In this document: positions 17,735 through 28,995 of the stretch, piece by piece
Layout of the letters: each line of letters begins with the position of its first letter
How positions within the stretch are numbered: position 1 is the first letter of the stretch
From: a virus
DNA length: 31,274 nt
Direction: 5' to 3' (one strand)
IMG/VR virus record: IMGVR_UViG_3300007735_000604
Location: 1-31,274 of that record
Notes under the pieces: model-generated
Seen by the model: the letters and a program-made list of their open reading frames with translations, nothing else
Databases searched by the model: none
Told to the model about the DNA's origin: nothing
Position numbers and translations under genes: made by a program

Positions 17735-17873
17735 CAAGTTGTGGAACAGCTTGGCTGCGGATTAGATCAATTACAGCGACAACATCGTTGTAAACGCCGC
17801 GGCCAAGATGGTTCAAGATTACATTAACCTGAGCGACTGTCAGTTTAATATCTACGGTTACTTCGTCCATCAT
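17679..17873 (-). CDS. Small conserved phage protein, 64 aa (paralogue of 30234-30431)
   Basis: The core (VDIKLTVAQVNVILNHLGRG, VVAVIDLIRSQAVPQL) matches the small protein at the other end of the late operon: beta strand, then VxVILxxLG, then a helix ending in a Q-x-x-x-Q region. Proteins with this pattern are common in marine and freshwater phages, function unknown. A GAGGAATATG ribosome site and ATGATG start overlap the preceding stop. Its C-terminal codons overlap the convergent plus-strand gene. Confidence 0.75.
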   Translation of the reverse strand: MMDEVTVDIKLTVAQVNVILNHLGRGVYNDVVAVIDLIRSQAVPQLASAQMPASSQEDAQQLAS

Positions 17874-19663
17874 ATTCCTCTGTTTGCTATGGACAATGCT
17901 TTCGCGACTGTCGTGTCGTCAAGATTAAGCAAAGAAGATGTTTCGTTGCTTATATCTTTTCTAACGCCGTCAACCATTGATATCAACTTGTCGGCTTTTG
18001 ATTTTGCAGACATTCCCGTGCGACCGCCAGAAGCCCTTGCTTGAGGTGTTTCGCCGATAAAGAAATCCTGCCCTTCTGGGATAGGCGTGTAATTTTGCGG
18101 CGTCTCTGATGGTGTTAAATTAACAGGCGAATACTGCCCATATTGATACGCAGCAAGGCGAGCAGGATAAGGCACAGCTTCGACAGCTTTTCTGCCAAGA
18201 CCGGCTGCCTGACCAAGTCTATATTGAGCTTGACCAGCTATCTTTGGAGATGCTGCAGCAATTCCAGCTAAGGTCGCTGGTATTCCAAGCACACCGTACG
18301 CGCCAATATTTGATATATATCCTCTTATTCCATAAGGCATAAAAGAAGACAATTCTTGCCCAGCTACCATAAATGGAATGTCAGGATTGATTTCAGCTAT
18401 TTGATCAAGCAATCCTTGCTTTTCTGCTTTTGATTGCGCCGCAATAATTTTCCTTACACGGGAAGCCATTGTCTTTCGGTCGCCAGTGCCCGCATAAAGC
18501 TCTTTACGCAATTCTTTTATTTGATTTGAATAATCAGAATATTCTTCCATCAAATCTGCATAACGTGAATCTTTTGCAGCAATGGTGTCAAAAACAGATT
18601 TTCTAATTTTACCAAGTACTTTTTGAGTGCTTGGATCACCTCTATAGTCTGATCTAATTTCGTCAATTCTTTGCTTAAGCGCATTCATATCTTGAATGCT
18701 ATTAGCAAGAGGGTCGTATGGTTGATTTTTCCATTTATCTATTTCTGCCTTAACTTTATCAATGGCTTCAGCCATAGATGCATCTTTTATTTTACCTATT
18801 GAACGAGCTTCACCGTATGCTTTATTGTAAGCATCATCAATCATATCAAATGGCAAAGCGCCTTCAGCCATCTGACCCATTTTTTGAACATAATTTTCGC
18901 TTGCTTTGTCTGATATAGTTTTTACAGCATCATCAACTGAATTTACCATATCTTCTGCAGTTGCAGCGCCTTTTAAGTGATTTATAAAAACAGGGTTTCC
19001 TTCAATACCTGCACGCGCGGCATCATTTAAACTTCTCATTGAAGCGCCAGTTTTCCACCAAAATGGAATAGCTGTCGCTTTAGGGAGCATTTCTGCGGCT
19101 TTTACAACGCCTGTCATAGGATCAATTGCTTTGCCAACGGTCATAGCTGTTTTACCAAGCTTCCCAGCTATACCGGGAGCCCTTGCAGCAAGACTTCCGC
19201 CACCCGTCAAGATAGTGGCAAGATCCATAGCTGTAGATACAGGATGTTCCGCAGCGCTTCTTTTTAGTTCTTCATATCCGCCATATCTTTCTTTAAGCTG
19301 TTCACCAGCTACAGATGCGGCTTCGCTAATTCTTTGCGTGGTTTCTGGAGCATCAAAAGATTCAATGTAATTGAATACTCTTTCAGGAAGAACAGCCTTT
19401 GCCGCAGCGCGTGTTCCGCCTGCTAATACATCACCGAGGCCGCCAAGCGTGGCTGGAATGTTGCTTGGTTTAAGTGCTTCATATGTGCTTTTTGCTACGT
19501 CTGCGACATCAGACGGCGCGCTAATGACCGCTTGCATAGGGATCTCGGCAAGAGAATAATTTCTCTTTGCTGGAGCCGCAGATGTAGTTGGCTCACCGAT
19601 TGTAAACTCGGGCTCTGCAACGGGTTGTATCCCACCCACTTGGCGCGGAGGTAATTCAGCCAT
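17870..19663 (-). CDS. Putative internal virion / ejection protein, 597 aa
   Basis: No enzymatic motif is visible. The protein is alanine-rich with hydrophobic glycine/alanine segments (residues ~135-190 and ~420-450) and a long charged helical middle (~250-390). It ends with ASGGRTGMSAKSKADKLI...VAKALSIANRGI, a terminal motif I recall from virion proteins of other podovirus-like phages. Size, composition and location in the late operon suggest an ejection protein that enters the host envelope; this is inference. A GGGGAA ribosome site precedes ATG 19663. The DNA is noticeably AT-richer than the rest of the late operon. Confidence 0.65.
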   Translation of the reverse strand: MAELPPRQVGGIQPVAEPEFTIGEPTTSAAPAKRNYSLAEIPMQAVISAPSDVADVAKSTYEALKPSNIPATLGGLGDVLAGGTRAAAKAVLPERVFNYIESFDAPETTQRISEAASVAGEQLKERYGGYEELKRSAAEHPVSTAMDLATILTGGGSLAARAPGIAGKLGKTAMTVGKAIDPMTGVVKAAEMLPKATAIPFWWKTGASMRSLNDAARAGIEGNPVFINHLKGAATAEDMVNSVDDAVKTISDKASENYVQKMGQMAEGALPFDMIDDAYNKAYGEARSIGKIKDASMAEAIDKVKAEIDKWKNQPYDPLANSIQDMNALKQRIDEIRSDYRGDPSTQKVLGKIRKSVFDTIAAKDSRYADLMEEYSDYSNQIKELRKELYAGTGDRKTMASRVRKIIAAQSKAEKQGLLDQIAEINPDIPFMVAGQELSSFMPYGIRGYISNIGAYGVLGIPATLAGIAAASPKIAGQAQYRLGQAAGLGRKAVEAVPYPARLAAYQYGQYSPVNLTPSETPQNYTPIPEGQDFFIGETPQARASGGRTGMSAKSKADKLISMVDGVRKDISNETSSLLNLDDTTVAKALSIANRGI

Positions 19664-19672
19664 TTTATTCCC

Positions 19673-22600
19673 CTATTGACCCGAGAAGTAACGGAAAAAT
19701 TCAGGACCAACTTTAAATCTTTCCTGAATTGCGCGTTTCACATTATCAGGAATAGCTCCGCTTTTTCCTGCAATGTATGGCAGCAGATATGTTTGAACCG
19801 TCTGACCAGTTGCTGGATCTTTAATTGCAAACGGCGTCATATACATTTGCTTAATAACAGCTTTTTCTTTCGCAAGTGTCTGCTCATTGCGCTTTGCAAA
19901 CTCATCATACAGGCCTCTGCCCATATAACGAGCTTCAGCAGCTGTAATGCCAGTTTGCTCCTGACCAGCCCTTTGCATTGACTTATAAAAACGATCGAGA
20001 TCAAGCTCGCGTTGCTGACTGTAATAAAGATCAGCAAGAAGATTTGCCTGACCTTCAGGAGAATTGGCAGCACTTGGAACGGCAGCAAGAATTGCTTCCA
20101 AAGCGCCATAAGCGCGTTGACCTGCTTGAGTTGTTCTTTTCTCAGCAAGCATACGAGAAATCTTTTCTGCGGTTTCTCGGTTACCAAGATCTTCTGGGCG
20201 AGCAATTTGAATATCTGGACGACCCAAAATAGAGAACAGGTTGTTAACGTATGATACAACAGGCGCGCTAACAGCTGCTGAAAATTGACCAGAGGCAAGC
20301 AAACTTTGATCACGCGGTATCGAGCCCAAAGCTTTTGTCAATGTATTGCGCTGCTGAAGATCAGCTTGAGATCCTCTTGCAATAACGTCCTGCTCATCAA
20401 ACGGATTTGCTGCAGCAGATGTTTCAAGATTTTTAAATCCTGACACCTGCACATCTTCTGCATTCTGACGGGCAATCTCTGCAAGATCTGGCGGAAGAGT
20501 TGACGTCCCAACTGTTGACTGAGGCTGCCCGGCTTGCGGCCGTGATGAGACAGTAAGATCGCCTTCTGGTGTTGTGATTGTAGCTTGTTCAGGACTCTGG
20601 CCTCCAATAGCACTATAAGGCCCCGGAACAACCGAATAAGGTTTACCCTCTTTCTGAGCGCGCACATATTCAGCAATTGGAACAGTCGTAAGTTTATTGC
20701 CGATATAAACTTTAACACCAATAATTGAACGACCAGAAGCATCTGTGACAATCGCATTCTGCGGAATTTCAGAGATGACTTTTGCTTGAGCAGCCTTTGA
20801 ATACTCAATGTCTTGAAGCGTCTTCTGAGCTTCTGGATATGCGCTCAGACCAGCGCCAACGCCTTCAAGAAGAGCAGCGCCAAGATATGGGCTCTTTGAA
20901 GAAGCCATAGCTTTAAGACCTGCGCCAAGCGGAGCAAGCCAGCCTTGGTTTTCTGTAAAGAAGTTGCCTATGCCGCCAACGCCTTCTGCAGGCGCTTGTG
21001 CTTGAGCGGGAGCGGCGCGGTCAGCTGGCAAATCAGCTTTACCTGCTGCAATTCCTGTTTTCTGCAAATTGCGAGCAACAGTCCATGGAGACCAGCCGTG
21101 CTTTGCGGCATAGTCTAACGACCAATCGATAGCTGCTTTTTGATTAGCTGGGTCACGCGCATCTAAACCAGTCTGTTTTGTAAACTCGTCACCAAGGCCG
21201 GGATTAGGAAAAGCTTTAGATGCGTTGCCATAATGCAATTGCGCTATGCCAAATGATGATCCTTCATCGCCTCTTGCGGCAGGATTAAAACCACTTTCGC
21301 CATGGAAAACTTTGGCTGCAAACTCTGGATCTACACCAGCCCGTTTTGCAGATTCAATCGTGTAATTGCGCCAAAAATCGGGGCTGCTTTCATCATCTTT
21401 AACAGCGCCTTCATTGGCATACCCAATACGGCCGCCATCTTTTGCAGGCATAAACATCATGGCAAACTTGGCGATGTTAGCAAGATCGCTCATACCGCTT
21501 CCGCCTTGGCTCGGCGGCGCGCCCGCTACAGCAAGTTGGTGCTTATCCATATCCGTAGGGATATCGATTTTTGTTTTTTCAGTAATATCTGGATCGTCAC
21601 TGGCGATGCCGCCAGAAGCAAAGAATTTGTGTTCTTTACCCCAATCATAAAATTCTGTTCCGCCTTTAGCGATGCCAATGCCTTTTTCTGCTAATGAAGT
21701 AAGCTGGCTCAAGGCGCTGTCTGGAAGGCTAGGTGCATTACCAGCAGTCATCAATTTGCCAATTGGGATGTTGGCTTCGGGAACATAGCCAAGACCTGCG
21801 CCATATGGCAGTCCGCCCATAGCAAAGCCTTCGCCTTCATGGCCGTGATGCACAGCGCCGCCTTCTGACGTCGCCTTATCATAATCAACAGTCTTGTAGC
21901 CCGCAGCAATTCCCACAGCTTCTGGGTGCTTCTTTTCAACCTCGTCGGCCATAAAGCCGATATGCGTCTGCTCGTTTGGATCGCCCTTGTATTTGTATTT
22001 ATAGATCGGCAATCCTTCATCGCTCTCACCGATACGCTTGACGTCTTCTTTAAGACGACGATCAGAGAAGAACGGCATAGGCTGCGTCGTGGTTGTGGTC
22101 GAACCAGAAAGCGCGCCAGTGCCCATGGCGATGTTTGCAAGGAACTGCGCCACTTGGAACGGATAGGCCTGCTGCTGCAGATATTGATTGTAAAGCGCTG
22201 TCTTGCCAGCCTGTTCTGTTTGTTGGCCGAGCGTGCCCGCACCGATTTGAGCCTGAGCGCCCTGAAGGCCCGCCTGCTGTGCGCCAGCGCCCAATGCGCC
22301 CATCTGCGCGGCGAGAGCACCTTGTTGGCCGAGGCCTGCCATGTAATTTCTTGCCGCGTCGGAATAGCCTTGTTGAGCCATTTGGCCGAGAACCTGCCCG
22401 GTAGCAAGATTTTGTTGATTGGCAAGAGCGGCTTGCGCTACGCGACCACGATCGCCGCCAAAAGCGCCTGATCGAATTGCATTTCCAAGAATGTCTTGCT
22501 GCTGCTGTCTTTGAACGTTTTGCATCTGAGCGGCTGTCGCGCCCATAGCGTTCTGCAGAAATGGGCTCATATAGCCCTGCACGCCACGCTGATATCCTTC

Positions 22601-22867
22601 TGGAGAAAATCCGCCATAAGCTCCCGCGGTGCCTTGCATGGCAGCCTGATAGGCTGGCTGTGCCGCGCCTGCATATTGATTGACGTTTGAAATGCCCTGC
22701 TGCTGTTGCGGATTTAATTGAGCAACAAACGATGACGGATCAGAGCTATATTGCTGAAAAGGCTGTTGAGCGGTCGTCTCGGCGCGGGCGTTGACGGCAT
22801 TATATCGAGCCAGTACCTCGGGCGGGATTTGGACGCTTTGCGTCGTCGTTCCGGTCTTGCCACCCAT
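19673..22867 (-). CDS. Multidomain virion protein: S74 chaperone domain plus lytic transglycosylase, 1064 aa
   Basis: Residues 1-265 are Gln/Ala/Gly-rich and probably elongated. Residues 268-332 match a peptidase S74/intramolecular chaperone domain (FFSDRRLKEDV, catalytic Ser268/Lys273; GFMADEVEKKHPEAV; KTVDYDK). Gly-rich FAxGG motifs follow at 350-480. Residues 498-600 form a lysozyme/SLT-like domain (FAAKVFHGESGFNPAARG with Glu524; SSFGIAQLH; YAAKHGWSPWTVARN). The rest (600-1064) is helical. It is likely a virion-associated peptidoglycan hydrolase that opens the cell wall during DNA entry. S74 domains usually sit at the C-terminus; here autoprocessing before Ser268 would split off an N-terminal 267-residue part. 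GGAGC precedes ATG 22867. Confidence 0.82.
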   Translation of the reverse strand: MGGKTGTTTQSVQIPPEVLARYNAVNARAETTAQQPFQQYSSDPSSFVAQLNPQQQQGISNVNQYAGAAQPAYQAAMQGTAGAYGGFSPEGYQRGVQGYMSPFLQNAMGATAAQMQNVQRQQQQDILGNAIRSGAFGGDRGRVAQAALANQQNLATGQVLGQMAQQGYSDAARNYMAGLGQQGALAAQMGALGAGAQQAGLQGAQAQIGAGTLGQQTEQAGKTALYNQYLQQQAYPFQVAQFLANIAMGTGALSGSTTTTTQPMPFFSDRRLKEDVKRIGESDEGLPIYKYKYKGDPNEQTHIGFMADEVEKKHPEAVGIAAGYKTVDYDKATSEGGAVHHGHEGEGFAMGGLPYGAGLGYVPEANIPIGKLMTAGNAPSLPDSALSQLTSLAEKGIGIAKGGTEFYDWGKEHKFFASGGIASDDPDITEKTKIDIPTDMDKHQLAVAGAPPSQGGSGMSDLANIAKFAMMFMPAKDGGRIGYANEGAVKDDESSPDFWRNYTIESAKRAGVDPEFAAKVFHGESGFNPAARGDEGSSFGIAQLHYGNASKAFPNPGLGDEFTKQTGLDARDPANQKAAIDWSLDYAAKHGWSPWTVARNLQKTGIAAGKADLPADRAAPAQAQAPAEGVGGIGNFFTENQGWLAPLGAGLKAMASSKSPYLGAALLEGVGAGLSAYPEAQKTLQDIEYSKAAQAKVISEIPQNAIVTDASGRSIIGVKVYIGNKLTTVPIAEYVRAQKEGKPYSVVPGPYSAIGGQSPEQATITTPEGDLTVSSRPQAGQPQSTVGTSTLPPDLAEIARQNAEDVQVSGFKNLETSAAANPFDEQDVIARGSQADLQQRNTLTKALGSIPRDQSLLASGQFSAAVSAPVVSYVNNLFSILGRPDIQIARPEDLGNRETAEKISRMLAEKRTTQAGQRAYGALEAILAAVPSAANSPEGQANLLADLYYSQQRELDLDRFYKSMQRAGQEQTGITAAEARYMGRGLYDEFAKRNEQTLAKEKAVIKQMYMTPFAIKDPATGQTVQTYLLPYIAGKSGAIPDNVKRAIQERFKVGPEFFRYFSGQ

Positions 22868-22868
22868 T

Positions 22869-23360
22869 TCAATGCTCCGTCATATTTTCATGCCCAGTGT
22901 GGACATTGTATAGGAAAAAGGCTCCTGCGGGAGCCCCGAATTGTCTTTCGTAGAGGCGAATTTTTGCCTCTGTCCGTTGGTTTGAAAGCACGCCGATGAT
23001 GAGCGGAATATCCAGATCGTCGGCAACCTTCTTGGAAAACTCACAAAGCTTGCGGGCTCGACCGCCTTTCGCGCTGCGATATTCTGGGTCAACAAAGATA
23101 GCCTTCTCTTCGACCATCCAACTGTCAGAATACCACATTTGACTGAGGCGCAGAAGAACCGCGCCTTCAATCTTTCCGCCGGGCTCGCCAATGATGCCGA
23201 CAAGGCCTTGCCACAGGTAAAGAGCAGGGCGAATCATCGCGAGCATTTTGGTGGGATTGACGTCGTTGATGCCGTTCTCTTCCCAAGCGCGAAGGGCCAA
23301 CTCAAGCATAGCCTCTTCATCTGCAGGGGTACCAAGGCGGACTTTCAGATCGTCAGACAT
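22869..23360 (-). CDS. GNAT-fold acetyltransferase-like protein, 163 aa
   Basis: The fold pattern is GNAT: N-terminal DEEAMLELALRAWEENG helix, beta strands (GLVGIIGEP, EGAVLLRL), EKAIFVDPEYRSAKGGRARKL (the acetyl-CoA pyrophosphate-binding motif A with R-x-x-G-x-A), then LIIGVLSNQRTEAKIRLYERQFG. It probably transfers an acyl group, but no substrate is apparent. GNAT-like proteins next to structural genes recur in podovirus-like phages, where an internal or structural role has been considered; none is proved. AAGGA precedes ATG 23360. Confidence 0.78.
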   Translation of the reverse strand: MSDDLKVRLGTPADEEAMLELALRAWEENGINDVNPTKMLAMIRPALYLWQGLVGIIGEPGGKIEGAVLLRLSQMWYSDSWMVEEKAIFVDPEYRSAKGGRARKLCEFSKKVADDLDIPLIIGVLSNQRTEAKIRLYERQFGAPAGAFFLYNVHTGHENMTEH

Positions 23361-23362
23361 TT

Positions 23363-23974
23363 CTAATCCTTTTTTGGGCCGGGGAGCTTTTTAAGCGTGG
23401 CTATTGTTTTAGCGCGGTATCCTTTGACAAAGTGATCAAGGATTTCGTGCCCGTGGTCCATATCGCCGCCGCCGATTTCCATAACGTCTTCAGGCTCGAT
23501 AACATATTCGCCGCCAGCGGCAACGATTTCAACAGGAGCGGCACCACCTGCGGCACGCGCACCATATGGTTTGCCTTCTGCGTAAGGCTGCTCTCCCTCG
23601 GCATAAGGCTGTTTCTCTTGAGAATAGGGTTTTGAGCTAAACATCTTACGGGCGATCTTGAACCCAGCCATCGTGTTGCCTTCGCCCATGGCTGAAATAA
23701 TGTCAGCTGGGATGACATAAGATCCTGACTTCACATTCATAGGCAAGTGATCTGTACGGCCTGCCACAGGGCTATGGATTGGTCCTGTATGGATCATATG
23801 AGCAGGCTTTGCATACTCAACTTGACGAACATTAAAAGGACCGCCCTCTGCCTTCGTGCGCCGTGCTGTTTCAAGCGCCGCGGCAATAGCCTGCTTCTGC
23901 GGATGACCTGCGTGGATCATCTCGCTGATGTTTGAGCTAATCGTTTTTTGAGATGATCCAGATTTTAATGGCAT
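23363..23974 (-). CDS. Conserved phage structural-region protein, 203 aa
   Basis: The N-terminus MPLKSGSSQKTISSNISEMI...QKQAIAAAL and the later GRTDHLPMNVKSGSYVIPADI...GEGNTMAGF are blocks I recognise from unnamed proteins of many proteobacterial phages. A short tandem repeat (QPYAEG twice, near residues 122-133) separates them from a C-terminal EYVIEPEDVMEIGGG region. Function unknown; genome position between a structural protein and the GNAT gene suggests a virion component. ATG 23974 is preferred over GTG 23980 on the family N-terminus. Confidence 0.78.
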   Translation of the reverse strand: MPLKSGSSQKTISSNISEMIHAGHPQKQAIAAALETARRTKAEGGPFNVRQVEYAKPAHMIHTGPIHSPVAGRTDHLPMNVKSGSYVIPADIISAMGEGNTMAGFKIARKMFSSKPYSQEKQPYAEGEQPYAEGKPYGARAAGGAAPVEIVAAGGEYVIEPEDVMEIGGGDMDHGHEILDHFVKGYRAKTIATLKKLPGPKKD

Positions 23975-23976
23975 GA

Positions 23977-25275
23977 TCACACCGTCAAATTGTAAAATGT
24001 AATTGAACCCGTGCCCGACCCTGTTGGGCTGTTATTCAACCCACGCGCCGCCAGAGTATATGTGTCGCTTGACGCAAACCCGTTGCCCGTGAGCGAAGCC
24101 GTATAACCAAGCTGAAGATCAAAATTGTACCGTGTCGCAAGCACCGCGCTAGAAACACCTTGCGCCGATTGGTTGGCAAAGGATGACTGAACAATTGTGT
24201 CCGCCGTTGCCGTGCATGCCGTTGCCGCTGTGTCTATGTCAACCATGCCTGCGGATATGGGTGTGCCTGCCCAAGTTGCCCCCGTAAGGGTTGCGTTCTT
24301 AATCAGGACAACTTCATAACCCGTTGAGCCTGATGATGTCGGGTTAAACAATATTGTATCGGGCAAAATGATCGCGCCGTAGTATGATGAATTTACGCGG
24401 ATAGATACAATAGGCGTGAAAGTCAGTCCTGTATGATTAGCAATTGTAATACCATTGGCACCAGTTCTAGCAACGTATGGTTGCGATGTTTGTTCATATC
24501 CGCCTTCAGAAATGACCGAAGAGCAGATCATTTGTAACGTGGCGGCACCAGTTGTTGTGCCTGTGTTTGAGATTTCATAGCGAAGCGGCAAAATTGCCGT
24601 CTGCATGTAAACTTTTGTTGACGTAGATTGGTTAGCGTTTTGGAACGTATGGCATACAATATAAACGCCGTTGATAACAAAACCGCAACGAACGTTACCA
24701 ACGCCAAGCCATTCAAAATCAAACCATAGAATTTGCGTTTTCGTCAGATCAAGCGTGATGCCTGACGGCCCTGTGCCGTCTAGTTTGTCGCCGTTCCAAT
24801 TTGCCTGAGCCACATAACGGGAATCATCGACGGACCCGCCCGTATAAGTGCGGATGACGAACGTAACGCCGTTTGGTCCTTGCTCCAAATAAGCGCCGTT
24901 GTATGCGCTAAAATACCCAACGCGCTGACGACGATTTGTTGCCGCAGCAGCCATCGTAAAAGTCTGGAGCGTCAGGAGGCCTTTGCCCGGCTGATACGGA
25001 AACACCCGATAGGTCTGTGCGACAGCCGTAGAACCTGATGTGGTTGTAACGTTAAGATTTACAGATGACTGATTGGTATTGTAGCTAGTCGTGCCGCCCG
25101 TTGCGGTGACGTAGCTATAAGCCGAGTCTGCCGCGAAACGTGCTTGACCGTCAAACAAAGTTACGGGGTTTGATACGCGCAAACGACCGAAGGCATCAGT
25201 ATTTGTGCCATCAAAAGCGACATAAACAGGGTTGTTAGTTGATGATCCATAGGGAGGGTAAACGGTAATCGTCAT
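23977..25275 (-). CDS. Beta-rich virion structural protein (tail or decoration), 432 aa
   Basis: The N-terminal DAFGRLRVSNPVTLFDGQARFAAD block is a recurring start of structural proteins in podovirus-like phages. The rest is Thr/Ser/Gly-rich beta sequence without enzymatic motifs, consistent with a tail-spike-like, fibre or capsid-decoration protein. Its ATG overlaps the upstream stop (ATGA) after a GGCGGGG ribosome site. Which virion part it belongs to cannot be told. Confidence 0.75.
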   Translation of the reverse strand: MTITVYPPYGSSTNNPVYVAFDGTNTDAFGRLRVSNPVTLFDGQARFAADSAYSYVTATGGTTSYNTNQSSVNLNVTTTSGSTAVAQTYRVFPYQPGKGLLTLQTFTMAAAATNRRQRVGYFSAYNGAYLEQGPNGVTFVIRTYTGGSVDDSRYVAQANWNGDKLDGTGPSGITLDLTKTQILWFDFEWLGVGNVRCGFVINGVYIVCHTFQNANQSTSTKVYMQTAILPLRYEISNTGTTTGAATLQMICSSVISEGGYEQTSQPYVARTGANGITIANHTGLTFTPIVSIRVNSSYYGAIILPDTILFNPTSSGSTGYEVVLIKNATLTGATWAGTPISAGMVDIDTAATACTATADTIVQSSFANQSAQGVSSAVLATRYNFDLQLGYTASLTGNGFASSDTYTLAARGLNNSPTGSGTGSITFYNLTV

Positions 25276-25685
25276 AACGTTGCCCCGCCTGAAATTTTGA
25301 TGGTCACATTACCAGAAGCGGAAGACGCCTGTATTGTACTGCCTGTCGATAAAGCCGTGCTGCCTGTCCATTGCACGGTAGTGTTTCCATTGATAGGCGC
25401 ATTGTAAAATAATGCGTTTGATGCGCCAGCAGTGCCGCCAGATGGTACAAGATAAATGCTAAATGACGAAGCCGTTGCTGACGCATTGCAAATCTCAATA
25501 TCAGTCAACGTGAATTGCTGTGCTGCGGGTACAGTGTAAATTATGCCAATGGTTGATCCTGCAGGCCCCGCTGGCTGCGGACCTCCACGATAAACAGCAG
25601 AGATCGCGCTAATATTTTGCGCGAGGTTGTTGATGGCAACAACCCCGTTTTTCTGAGTGGTTAAGATATCGTCTAAACTTGCCAT
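25272..25685 (-). CDS. Small structural protein, 137 aa
   Basis: The N-terminal MASLDDILTTQKNGVVAINNLAQN block is common in small phage structural proteins. The following beta-rich Ser/Thr-rich domain (YTVPAAQQFTLTDIEICNAS...SIYLVPSGG...GSTIQASSASGNVTIKISG) reads as a jelly-roll-like or Ig-like accessory domain. The start at 25685 overlaps the gp10-like stop as ATGA. Role inferred only from context. Confidence 0.72.
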   Translation of the reverse strand: MASLDDILTTQKNGVVAINNLAQNISAISAVYRGGPQPAGPAGSTIGIIYTVPAAQQFTLTDIEICNASATASSFSIYLVPSGGTAGASNALFYNAPINGNTTVQWTGSTALSTGSTIQASSASGNVTIKISGGATL

Positions 25686-27757
25686 CAGAAGCGCCCATCT
25701 GGTTGGAAACGATATCGAATGCCGCCAAGACGCCAAAACGTGCCAACGTCGTCAGACGATATAGTGATCTGCATAAGGCGCGCTCGTATGCGGACAGATA
25801 GATATTGCGTCTGCTGCGTCATCTGATACGGGCCATATACGATCGGCGTATCGCCGGGGTAATTTGTTGCATTGAACGTGATATTAACCGTGGCATTGGG
25901 GTTTCCGCTATAGGTTCCCCACTTCATGTCAGGCCAAATTTGGTCAACAAACACAAGATTATCAGCGCCTTGATCAAGAGCGAAGAAACCGCTTCCTGCA
26001 TTTGACTGCATGGCCGTAGCTTGATTGCCGACATATGCGTCATTGCCGATTTCGTGTTGATAGAGCCAGTTATCGCCGCCTGCGCCGATCGGCGGCCCAA
26101 GCACAGACTGATCAATCCATGCCGTACGGCCGAGCGTGCCATAGTCCCAGCACTGCATAACAATGTTGTATTTGACGTAGCTGTCGTTCTCACCGTTGCC
26201 ATTTGCAGACGGATAAAACCACATAACTTCGTTGAATTGAGAATTGACTGCACAACAAATCCGATTTGTGTAGGGCAAACCATTGCCATCAACACCGCTC
26301 TTAAGGTTTTGGAATACGGAATCCCATACGGTGCAGGGGATCGATTGCGGACCAGCGCCCATGCTCATAAAGAATTGCTTTTGAGACATCCAATAGACAG
26401 CGCCATTGAGCGTGCCGACGCAGTGCTGAGAGATTGCGCCGCAATTCGTGCCGATTTTGTTGAACCCATACACGAACGGGGGACCAACATATTGCATCGC
26501 CCAGAGGTCAAGATCGGTCCAGAGCAAGCCCTGCTGCGGACCCTGAATGCCTGCAACGATCTTTGAGCCTGTCGGGATGCGGTACGAGCCAGCCTGATTC
26601 GTGGCGGTCGCTTCCCATTGCGTAAAGTCTTCGATGTCACACCAACGCACAAGAAGGGGATCTGGCGCGAGCGTGAACGAAGAGCCATAAGCTACGATCT
26701 GCCGCTCTGGCATCGCAACAAACACGCCAGCATTCACAAGCGGAGAGTTGCCACCAACGATCTGGGCGTTCTGCAATTGCCCGTCTGGCTGCCAGAAATA
26801 GATCGCGCCGCCTGCAGGGCAGGCAATCAGATCCTGACCGAAGTTATCGAGCGTCCAATCGGTTGCCGTGATAGCGGTCCCCGGCACAGACGGCTGCGCC
26901 GTACCAGAACCGAACCCACCAGCGCCAAAGCCACCAACGCCAAAACCCGTGCTTGCAGGCTGCGGACCGATCGCGATGTAAAAGAGGCTTTCGATATTTC
27001 CGCCATTGATCGCGGTCGGACCAGCGGTCGATGTCGCTGTGTTTTGCGCTGCAAATGTAAATGTGTTTGCAGTAGGCGTGGTCAATATTGTGTATAGACC
27101 ATCAAGGGTGACGCCACCGACAGTCGTTGCAGCTGACACAAAGATTTGATCGCCGACTGAATAACCATGATTATTGAACGTGCAGGTGATAATATTTGAG
27201 CCGCTTGTAGTAGAAAACCTATAAGACGCTCCACCGCTTGCCACGGTGCTTGTAGCATTGCTTGATGCTTGAATAGTGTAAGTCGTACTTGCGGCTGTAT
27301 AAAGTTGATAGGGGCCTGTAAGGACAAGGCCGCCAACTGAAACAGGCGTTTCAAACACAACATAATCAAGAATAGATGCGACAATATTTGTATCGACAAT
27401 TGTGACAATATTTGAGCCAGATGTCGTTGAGAAATTTGGCGCTGTGTTTGTCGTTGTCGTTTGTGGCGTGATGTTGATCAACGTGCCATTGGTCAAGACG
27501 TTGAGAGAAGATTCAGCGCCGATCGCAAGATGGTTTTCAGCATTCAAATCTGCCCAACCCTTGAGAGCGCGGATCTTGGAAGACAATGCAGAACCAAAAT
27601 AATTGACCCAACCGCCCATCTTTTGGATAAGACCGAGGCCGTCACGCTCGTAAAGAAAGCGGATCAGGTTAGAGCTAGAATATTCCGTGTTGTCGTTCAG
27701 GTTCGTGGTTGATGTGGTATCAACACCCGGCCGCAACTTGATCATATTATGAGGCAT
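25685..27757 (-). CDS. P22 gp10-like packaged-DNA stabilisation / tail hub protein, 690 aa
   Basis: The N-terminus (IKLRPGVDTTST...NLIRFLYERDGLGLIQKMGGW...ALKGWADLNAENHLAIG) is typical of gp10-like tail hub proteins that plug the head-tail channel in podoviruses. Inserted after residue 105 are two tandem ~70-residue modules (109-179 and 181-251), both beginning FSTTSGSNI and resembling the E1-FCCH-like beta domain often found in phage tail proteins. The remaining 400 residues form beta-propeller-like sequence. It sits directly downstream of the adaptor gene, as in P22-like order. ATG 27757 follows GAGGTAATCTGA. Confidence 0.82.
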   Translation of the reverse strand: MPHNMIKLRPGVDTTSTTNLNDNTEYSSSNLIRFLYERDGLGLIQKMGGWVNYFGSALSSKIRALKGWADLNAENHLAIGAESSLNVLTNGTLINITPQTTTTNTAPNFSTTSGSNIVTIVDTNIVASILDYVVFETPVSVGGLVLTGPYQLYTAASTTYTIQASSNATSTVASGGASYRFSTTSGSNIITCTFNNHGYSVGDQIFVSAATTVGGVTLDGLYTILTTPTANTFTFAAQNTATSTAGPTAINGGNIESLFYIAIGPQPASTGFGVGGFGAGGFGSGTAQPSVPGTAITATDWTLDNFGQDLIACPAGGAIYFWQPDGQLQNAQIVGGNSPLVNAGVFVAMPERQIVAYGSSFTLAPDPLLVRWCDIEDFTQWEATATNQAGSYRIPTGSKIVAGIQGPQQGLLWTDLDLWAMQYVGPPFVYGFNKIGTNCGAISQHCVGTLNGAVYWMSQKQFFMSMGAGPQSIPCTVWDSVFQNLKSGVDGNGLPYTNRICCAVNSQFNEVMWFYPSANGNGENDSYVKYNIVMQCWDYGTLGRTAWIDQSVLGPPIGAGGDNWLYQHEIGNDAYVGNQATAMQSNAGSGFFALDQGADNLVFVDQIWPDMKWGTYSGNPNATVNITFNATNYPGDTPIVYGPYQMTQQTQYLSVRIRARLMQITISSDDVGTFWRLGGIRYRFQPDGRF

Positions 27758-28479: not shown

Positions 28480-28995
28480 TTACCCCACCATCTTAAAGGC
28501 TGTTTCCTCAACCTCGGAAACCCGACGCCCCCAGCCGCGTCCGAATGTAGCCCAAGTCGGCAGACTTTGCAAAAAGTTAAGCCTTAGATCGCATATTTCC
28601 GTCGCCAGATCTCGAGCGTTTGCCTTCGCAACAGCATCCAAAGTGGCTGGGCCGATTGCGCCGTCCGCACTAACACCCACTGCTTGTTGTAAGATCTTGG
28701 CCGCACGCCCCACCCCTGAGTTCACCGCAAGGTCAAAACACGCATAATCAACTCCCAACGGAAGCTGATCGCCCTTTATTTTGTCCCAATAGTTCTTTTT
28801 GTAAAGCGGCGCGACGGCCTGAACGGTCAAAGCCCGCATTGCCGCCTCGTCAACGGGATGCCCTATCCACTCTTCCCATACCTTCTTGGTCACGCCCAGA
28901 TTGGTCATGCCTCCGGGGTCTTTAGGATTATTTACATAACCGCCTTCGTGTTTGAGAACGAGGGCGAGGCATTGTTCGAAATTATCTGCGCTCAT
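28480..28995 (-). CDS. Endolysin, glycoside hydrolase family 108 (N-acetylmuramidase), 171 aa
   Basis: Cleaves peptidoglycan for cell lysis. The catalytic signature HEGGYVNNPKDPGGMTNLGV (Glu17) is diagnostic for GH108. The C-terminal half (LQQAVGVSADGAIGPATLDAV) is a peptidoglycan-binding (PG_binding_3-like) domain. The length is normal and there is no signal peptide, so it needs the holin gene directly upstream in the same operon (ATGA overlap). Confidence 0.96.
   Translation of the reverse strand: MSADNFEQCLALVLKHEGGYVNNPKDPGGMTNLGVTKKVWEEWIGHPVDEAAMRALTVQAVAPLYKKNYWDKIKGDQLPLGVDYACFDLAVNSGVGRAAKILQQAVGVSADGAIGPATLDAVAKANARDLATEICDLRLNFLQSLPTWATFGRGWGRRVSEVEETAFKMVG

Follow-up and report, generated by a model that had tools for sequence, protein, structure and literature searches.

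An internal S74 chaperone-protease domain in a putative fused virion protein of uncultivated short-tailed phages

Known S74 domains and virion wall hydrolases

S74 domains are chaperone-proteases that trim phage fibres and, in MYRF, free a transcription factor. In the endosialidase (K1F/EndoNF) and in the chaperone of the T5 L-shaped fibre, pb1, the domain carries an S-D/N-xxx-K motif and an essential Gly, as does the domain described here, and the chain is cut just before the Ser. These are receptor-binding fibres, and their S74 domain differs from the one described here in being C-terminal and at least 133 residues long with a coiled coil. A precedent for an internal position comes from eukaryotes, where the S74-type ICA domain of MYRF and MrfA lies in mid-protein and splits two functional halves (PMC3742443). 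Those proteins, unlike the phage protein, are membrane-bound transcription factors, and their ICA domain includes a coiled coil. The proven cleavers, MYRF and T5 pb1, work as trimers around this C-terminal coiled coil, on which both their trimerization and their cleavage depend.

Wall hydrolases with an SLT fold are found in internal virion proteins, T7 gp16 among them. The enzyme of gp16 is at its N-terminus, and we know of no S74 domain in that protein. The closest described systems are two-gene units in the phages phiGT1, phiM5, OH, pCB2047-C, RHph_N2 and PAE2 (PHROG 6121/4287 type), which have the same gene neighbourhood as the locus described here. Their S74 gene mostly lies right after an acetyltransferase gene, encodes the same short domain with SDxxxK, and has a hydrolase or internal virion gene as its next neighbor. 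No paper on S74 domains in ejection proteins was found in the literature, nor any data on cleavage by, or trimers of, a short-form S74 domain; the phiGT1 paper does not discuss the domain.

The DNA analyzed, here called the window, is the 31,274-nt virus record IMGVR_UViG_3300007735_000604. It encodes a protein made of known parts: an internal-virion-protein N-module, an S74 core and a virion hydrolase cargo. As far as tools and papers show, three things are new: that an S74 domain holds a stable internal place in an entry protein of a phage, that it is doubled, and that hydrolases are exchanged behind it.

Layout of the protein

ORF calling on the window gave a 1064-aa frame with an ATG start on the minus strand (19673..22867), as are all features of this protein given below; relatives with the same N-terminal module are about 1000-2150 aa long. 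An assembly artefact or a frameshift joining two genes was ruled out by the same open frame in dozens of independent contigs.

Residues 1-257 (22097..22867) form a Gln/Ala-rich, mostly helical module resembling ejection proteins. Together with the S74 domain, this module matches PHROG 6121 (virion structural, 7.6e-22) and PHROG 4287 (DNA ejection protein, 1.9e-14). Both profiles have S74 at their C-terminus, and the matches end at profile positions 388/392 and 387/392. The AF2 model places helices at residues 16-253, with low confidence. A conserved strand, STTTTTQP-x-x-F-F (residues 254-267, 22067..22108; predicted strand 258-262), stands just before the predicted scissile bond and is followed by the short-form S74 domain (residues 268-333, 21869..22066). 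A Gly-rich linker with FAxGG-type motifs comes next (residues 334-490, 21398..21868); it is predicted to be disordered right after S74, with pLDDT 30-37 at residues 336-380. The SLT-fold domain (residues 494-602, 21062..21388) precedes a divergent, partly helical region that runs to the C-terminus (residues 603-1064, 19676..21061). This region contains a conserved MASSxSPYLGxALLxGxGxG segment (residues 654-677, 20837..20908), present in 55 of 82 family ORFs.

Both the PHROG 4287/6121 match and the gene order, tubeB - acetyltransferase - S74 protein - hydrolase - internal protein, are those of podoviral ejection proteins. By homology and gene order the fused protein is probably located in the virion.

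Identity and conservation of the S74 domain

The motif FFSDRRLKEDV spans residues 266-276. It contains Ser268 (codon 22064..22066), the predicted nucleophile before which the cut is expected, and Lys273 (codon 22049..22051), the predicted general base of the dyad. A sequence-only reading of the window had placed an S74 domain here, with an intact Ser/Lys dyad. Profile search bears this out, with the gene to be read on the minus strand: Pfam Peptidase_S74 matches residues 268-318 at E=3.2e-10 (40.6 bits against a cut-off of 22) over profile positions 1-57 of 58, and another search gave 45.3 bits. A profile of the window domain retrieves solved S74/ICA structures by sequence, namely 6f45 (long tail fibre), 7dc3 (human MYRF), 3gud (neck appendage) and 8hqz (L-shaped fibre), in a list with E from 5e-4 to 0.3 that also holds two chance hits. 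A phmmer search with the single sequence against the PDB gave no match. The domain is modeled by AF2 with pLDDT 75-85. A fold search with the model of residues 1-420 returned generic helical bundles only and is no test of the S74 fold, so the identification as S74 rests on sequence profiles. A chance match was ruled out by the profile E of 3e-10 and by the same domain in 107 relatives.

The SDxxxK motif, with its Ser and Lys, is intact in 147/147 S74 copies of the family. The search words used for retrieval lay outside SDxxxK, and the conservation of the dyad is therefore not imposed by the way the relatives were collected. Six of the 63 alignment columns are invariant (S268, D269, K273, G280, G285 and G304); identity in the median column is 68%. 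For the endosialidase or MYRF, the residues equivalent to S, D/N, K and the Gly of GxxAQ are reported to be important for cleavage (PMC3742443). The GxxAQ stretch reads GFMAD in the window protein, its Gly being G304 by profile alignment, and four of the six invariant columns coincide with these reported positions. Among the 147 there is no inactivated copy; the domain is either intact or missing altogether. Such a pattern would be expected if the domain is kept for its chemistry.

The domain is of a short form, 62-66 residues, which lacks the C-terminal coiled coil. In the classical long form a C-terminal triple coiled coil builds the trimer, whereas in the window protein the core is followed only by the disordered Gly-rich linker in the AF2 model. 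The missing coiled coil lowers the claim of the classical mechanism but not that of homology to the S74 core.

The hydrolase domain and its exchange

The sequence-only reading also had a wall hydrolase beyond S74, and this part holds. Pfam SLT at residues 502-551 is below cut-off (18.2 bits against 21.3, E=0.0018). The predicted fold of residues 494-602, which is well modeled, matches MltE (Z 8.2, 99 aa), MltF (Z 8.0) and the T7 gp16 ejectosome transglycosylase (7k5c, Z 7.5). E524, G540 and Q543, the catalytic Glu with GxxQ, are invariant in 17 aligned relatives. Residues 494-602 are, in the model, a lytic-transglycosylase fold, and its predicted likeness to T7 gp16 fits an enzyme of entry. 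A separate GH108 endolysin with a peptidoglycan-binding domain is encoded at 28480-28995 (Pfam), and the SLT domain of the fusion is therefore unlikely to be the lysis enzyme.

Among 38 full-length relatives scanned with Pfam, S74 is present in 38/38 and the cargo is SLT in ten, GH108 in two, phage lysozyme 2 in one and VanY in one; PHROG assigns further endolysin-type families to the cargo of relatives. Behind an unchanging N-module and S74, the type of hydrolase differs between relatives.

S74 in the family

Scans of IMG/VR gave hundreds of relatives, and after removal of near-copies 128 proteins with the same N-module were judged. S74 is internal in 107 of them, as one copy in 71 and as two in 36; it is terminal in four and absent from 17. 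The same domain order is thus found in relatives, but the layout, which the sequence-only reading took as a departure from the normal C-terminal place of S74, is not peculiar to this phage and is standard in a large aquatic family. The second copy (in L001, L059, L062, L070, L073 and others) lies downstream, at a median of 257 residues past the first, and its SDxxxK is intact in 36/36. The S74-less proteins, L157, L172, L255, L259 and 13 further relatives, are long family members; in clear cases the domain is missing exactly at its borders, and the same STTT-type strand runs straight into the same Gly-rich linker.

On the tree, at least 7 changes are needed to explain where S74 is present or absent, and at least 16 to explain the two-copy state, so the cassette was repeatedly gained, lost or doubled. 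S74 recurs in the middle of virion entry proteins as a cassette, single or doubled, that is kept intact or lost entirely and that stands before an exchangeable wall hydrolase. The terminal S74 of L231 (ORF residues 392-488) matches in two separate halves, as though an insertion had split the domain.

The fused proteins are from a large group of uncultivated short-tailed phages. In bacterial genomes, relatives were found in only seven metagenome-bin contigs and consequently no host is assigned.

Two-gene relatives and origin by fusion

In a survey of S74 proteins of other phages nearly all chains end within 20 residues after the domain, which agrees with the premise of the sequence-only reading that S74 is normally terminal. 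Cultured relatives encode the S74 protein in a gene of its own, and the chain ends 1-12 residues past the domain. Of 87 genes with a terminal S74, 65 abut or overlap the ORF that follows. In phiGT1, OH, phiM5, pCB2047-C, EBPR podovirus 2, RHph_I3_18 and ctvy9321 the following gene codes, by annotation or match, for a wall hydrolase, and the phiM5 annotation lists both proteins, S74 and hydrolase, as found in the particle.

Some of these relatives share the N-module of the window protein as well. Ochrobactrum phage OH, Sinorhizobium phiM5, ctvy9321 and L412 have a terminal S74 with the same N-module, and an N-module profile without any S74 finds OH, phiM5 and ctvy9321 among the two-gene phages. 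They differ from the window protein in that S74 forms the last residues of the chain and the hydrolase is a separate abutting gene, where the window protein is fused. From Ser to chain end, relatives with a terminal S74 have 61-81 residues, as against 133 in T5 pb1, 141 in Bd3182 and about 118 in MYRF.

The simplest reading of these sequences is a fusion of two neighboring virion genes in which S74 would have been left at the seam. We infer the direction, from two genes to the fusion; the tree is unrooted, with three two-gene rows on long branches.

Proposed processing of the fused protein

The explanation preferred here, at a probability of about 0.55, is as follows. Short-tailed phages would have had a unit of two genes, the first for an internal virion protein capped by S74 and the second for a virion wall hydrolase, and this unit would have been fused into one frame, with the S74 cassette remaining at the former gene boundary. 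After folding and trimerization, Ser268 helped by Lys273 would cut the chain before Ser268. This would separate a 267-residue protein of the ejection type, like that of the two-gene relatives, from a hydrolase of 797 residues that keeps S74 as an N-terminal cap. Both pieces would act from the virion at entry, opening the wall and forming or feeding a DNA channel. The sequence-only reading had given the same lengths for a cut at this site, and the arithmetic is right; its Gln/Ala-rich N-terminal piece is as stated.

The lack of a coiled coil and the existence of S74-less fusions keep the predicted cleavage before Ser268 only slightly better than even. The short form stops before the coiled coil and trimerization would have to come from elsewhere. 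Since 17/128 relatives are without S74, the cut cannot be an obligatory maturation step in the fused family. The same two points favor a domain that does not cut, a less probable reading in which S74 would be a folding or oligomerization module of an intact ejection-hydrolase protein, its Ser, Asp and Lys shaping the fold or a subunit contact. The coiled coil for the known trimer-dependent reaction is missing, the fusions without S74 are still one long chain each, their linker and C-terminal parts unchanged, and S74 is also a chaperone, not a protease alone (PMC3742443). A structural role, however, explains poorly why S, D and K never vary at two positions in the chain when most columns do, and why the domain is never found dead.

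In second copies and terminal cousins the segment before the expected cut is more hydrophobic than background, with medians of 1.37 and 1.31 against 0.24. No first copy passes the 1.6 hydrophobicity threshold and no membrane tail is claimed for this reason.

If S74 cuts, these phages have a virus-encoded processing of ejection polyproteins that needs no separate protease. Such a minimal S74 would need no coiled coil, and the current view of what triggers the cut would have to change. A broader and more doubtful proposal is that S74 is a self-cutting cassette of virion polyproteins, cutting in its short form without a coiled coil. One copy would split the ejection protein from an exchangeable hydrolase, and two copies (36/107) would yield three products, one of them a middle segment of its own. 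Were this so, genes could be fused and cargo swapped without loss of the separate proteins.

Linker motifs and neighboring genes

Motifs of the F/Y-A-x-G-G type recur in the linker (21398-21868) and in that of relatives. Between S74 and the hydrolase they are strongly over-represented, 211 seen against 32 expected by shuffling in 82 relatives. They are kept in S74-less members and occur also in the neighboring virion genes at 23363-23980 and 17870-19663. The chain might then be cut by another protease, for example in this linker, with S74 merely a fold. This is improbable, as repeated Gly-rich linkers can bear such motifs for other reasons and the invariant dyad would be left unexplained. To our knowledge no protease acts on an FAxGG motif.

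In a further reading, translation would start internally and so yield the two functions apart, with no proteolysis. In-frame ATG codons with a weak Shine-Dalgarno-like tetramer are present at residues 350 and 459 of the 1064-aa chain. A match of four bases counts for little, and close relatives do not keep Met350 (FAAGG, YAVGG), so internal starts are very improbable and the cut before Ser268 is still preferred.

Directly downstream of the fused gene lies a 597-aa gene (17870..19663, minus strand), by position a further internal virion protein, for which Pfam and PHROG gave no confident family match. Directly upstream is a GNAT acetyltransferase gene (22869..23360, minus strand), a neighbor shared by relatives with and without the fusion. 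Between the tube gene and a 205-aa gene the window has a 432-aa gene (23977-25275; PHROG 1645 virion structural protein, E 3e-94) and a 154-aa gene (25272-25736), where L001, L002 and L004 have no comparable large gene. The 205-aa gene itself (23363-23980) is conserved beside the acetyltransferase gene in relatives and contains two similar segments, SGSYVIPADIISAMGEGN and GGEYVIEPEDVMEIGGGD.
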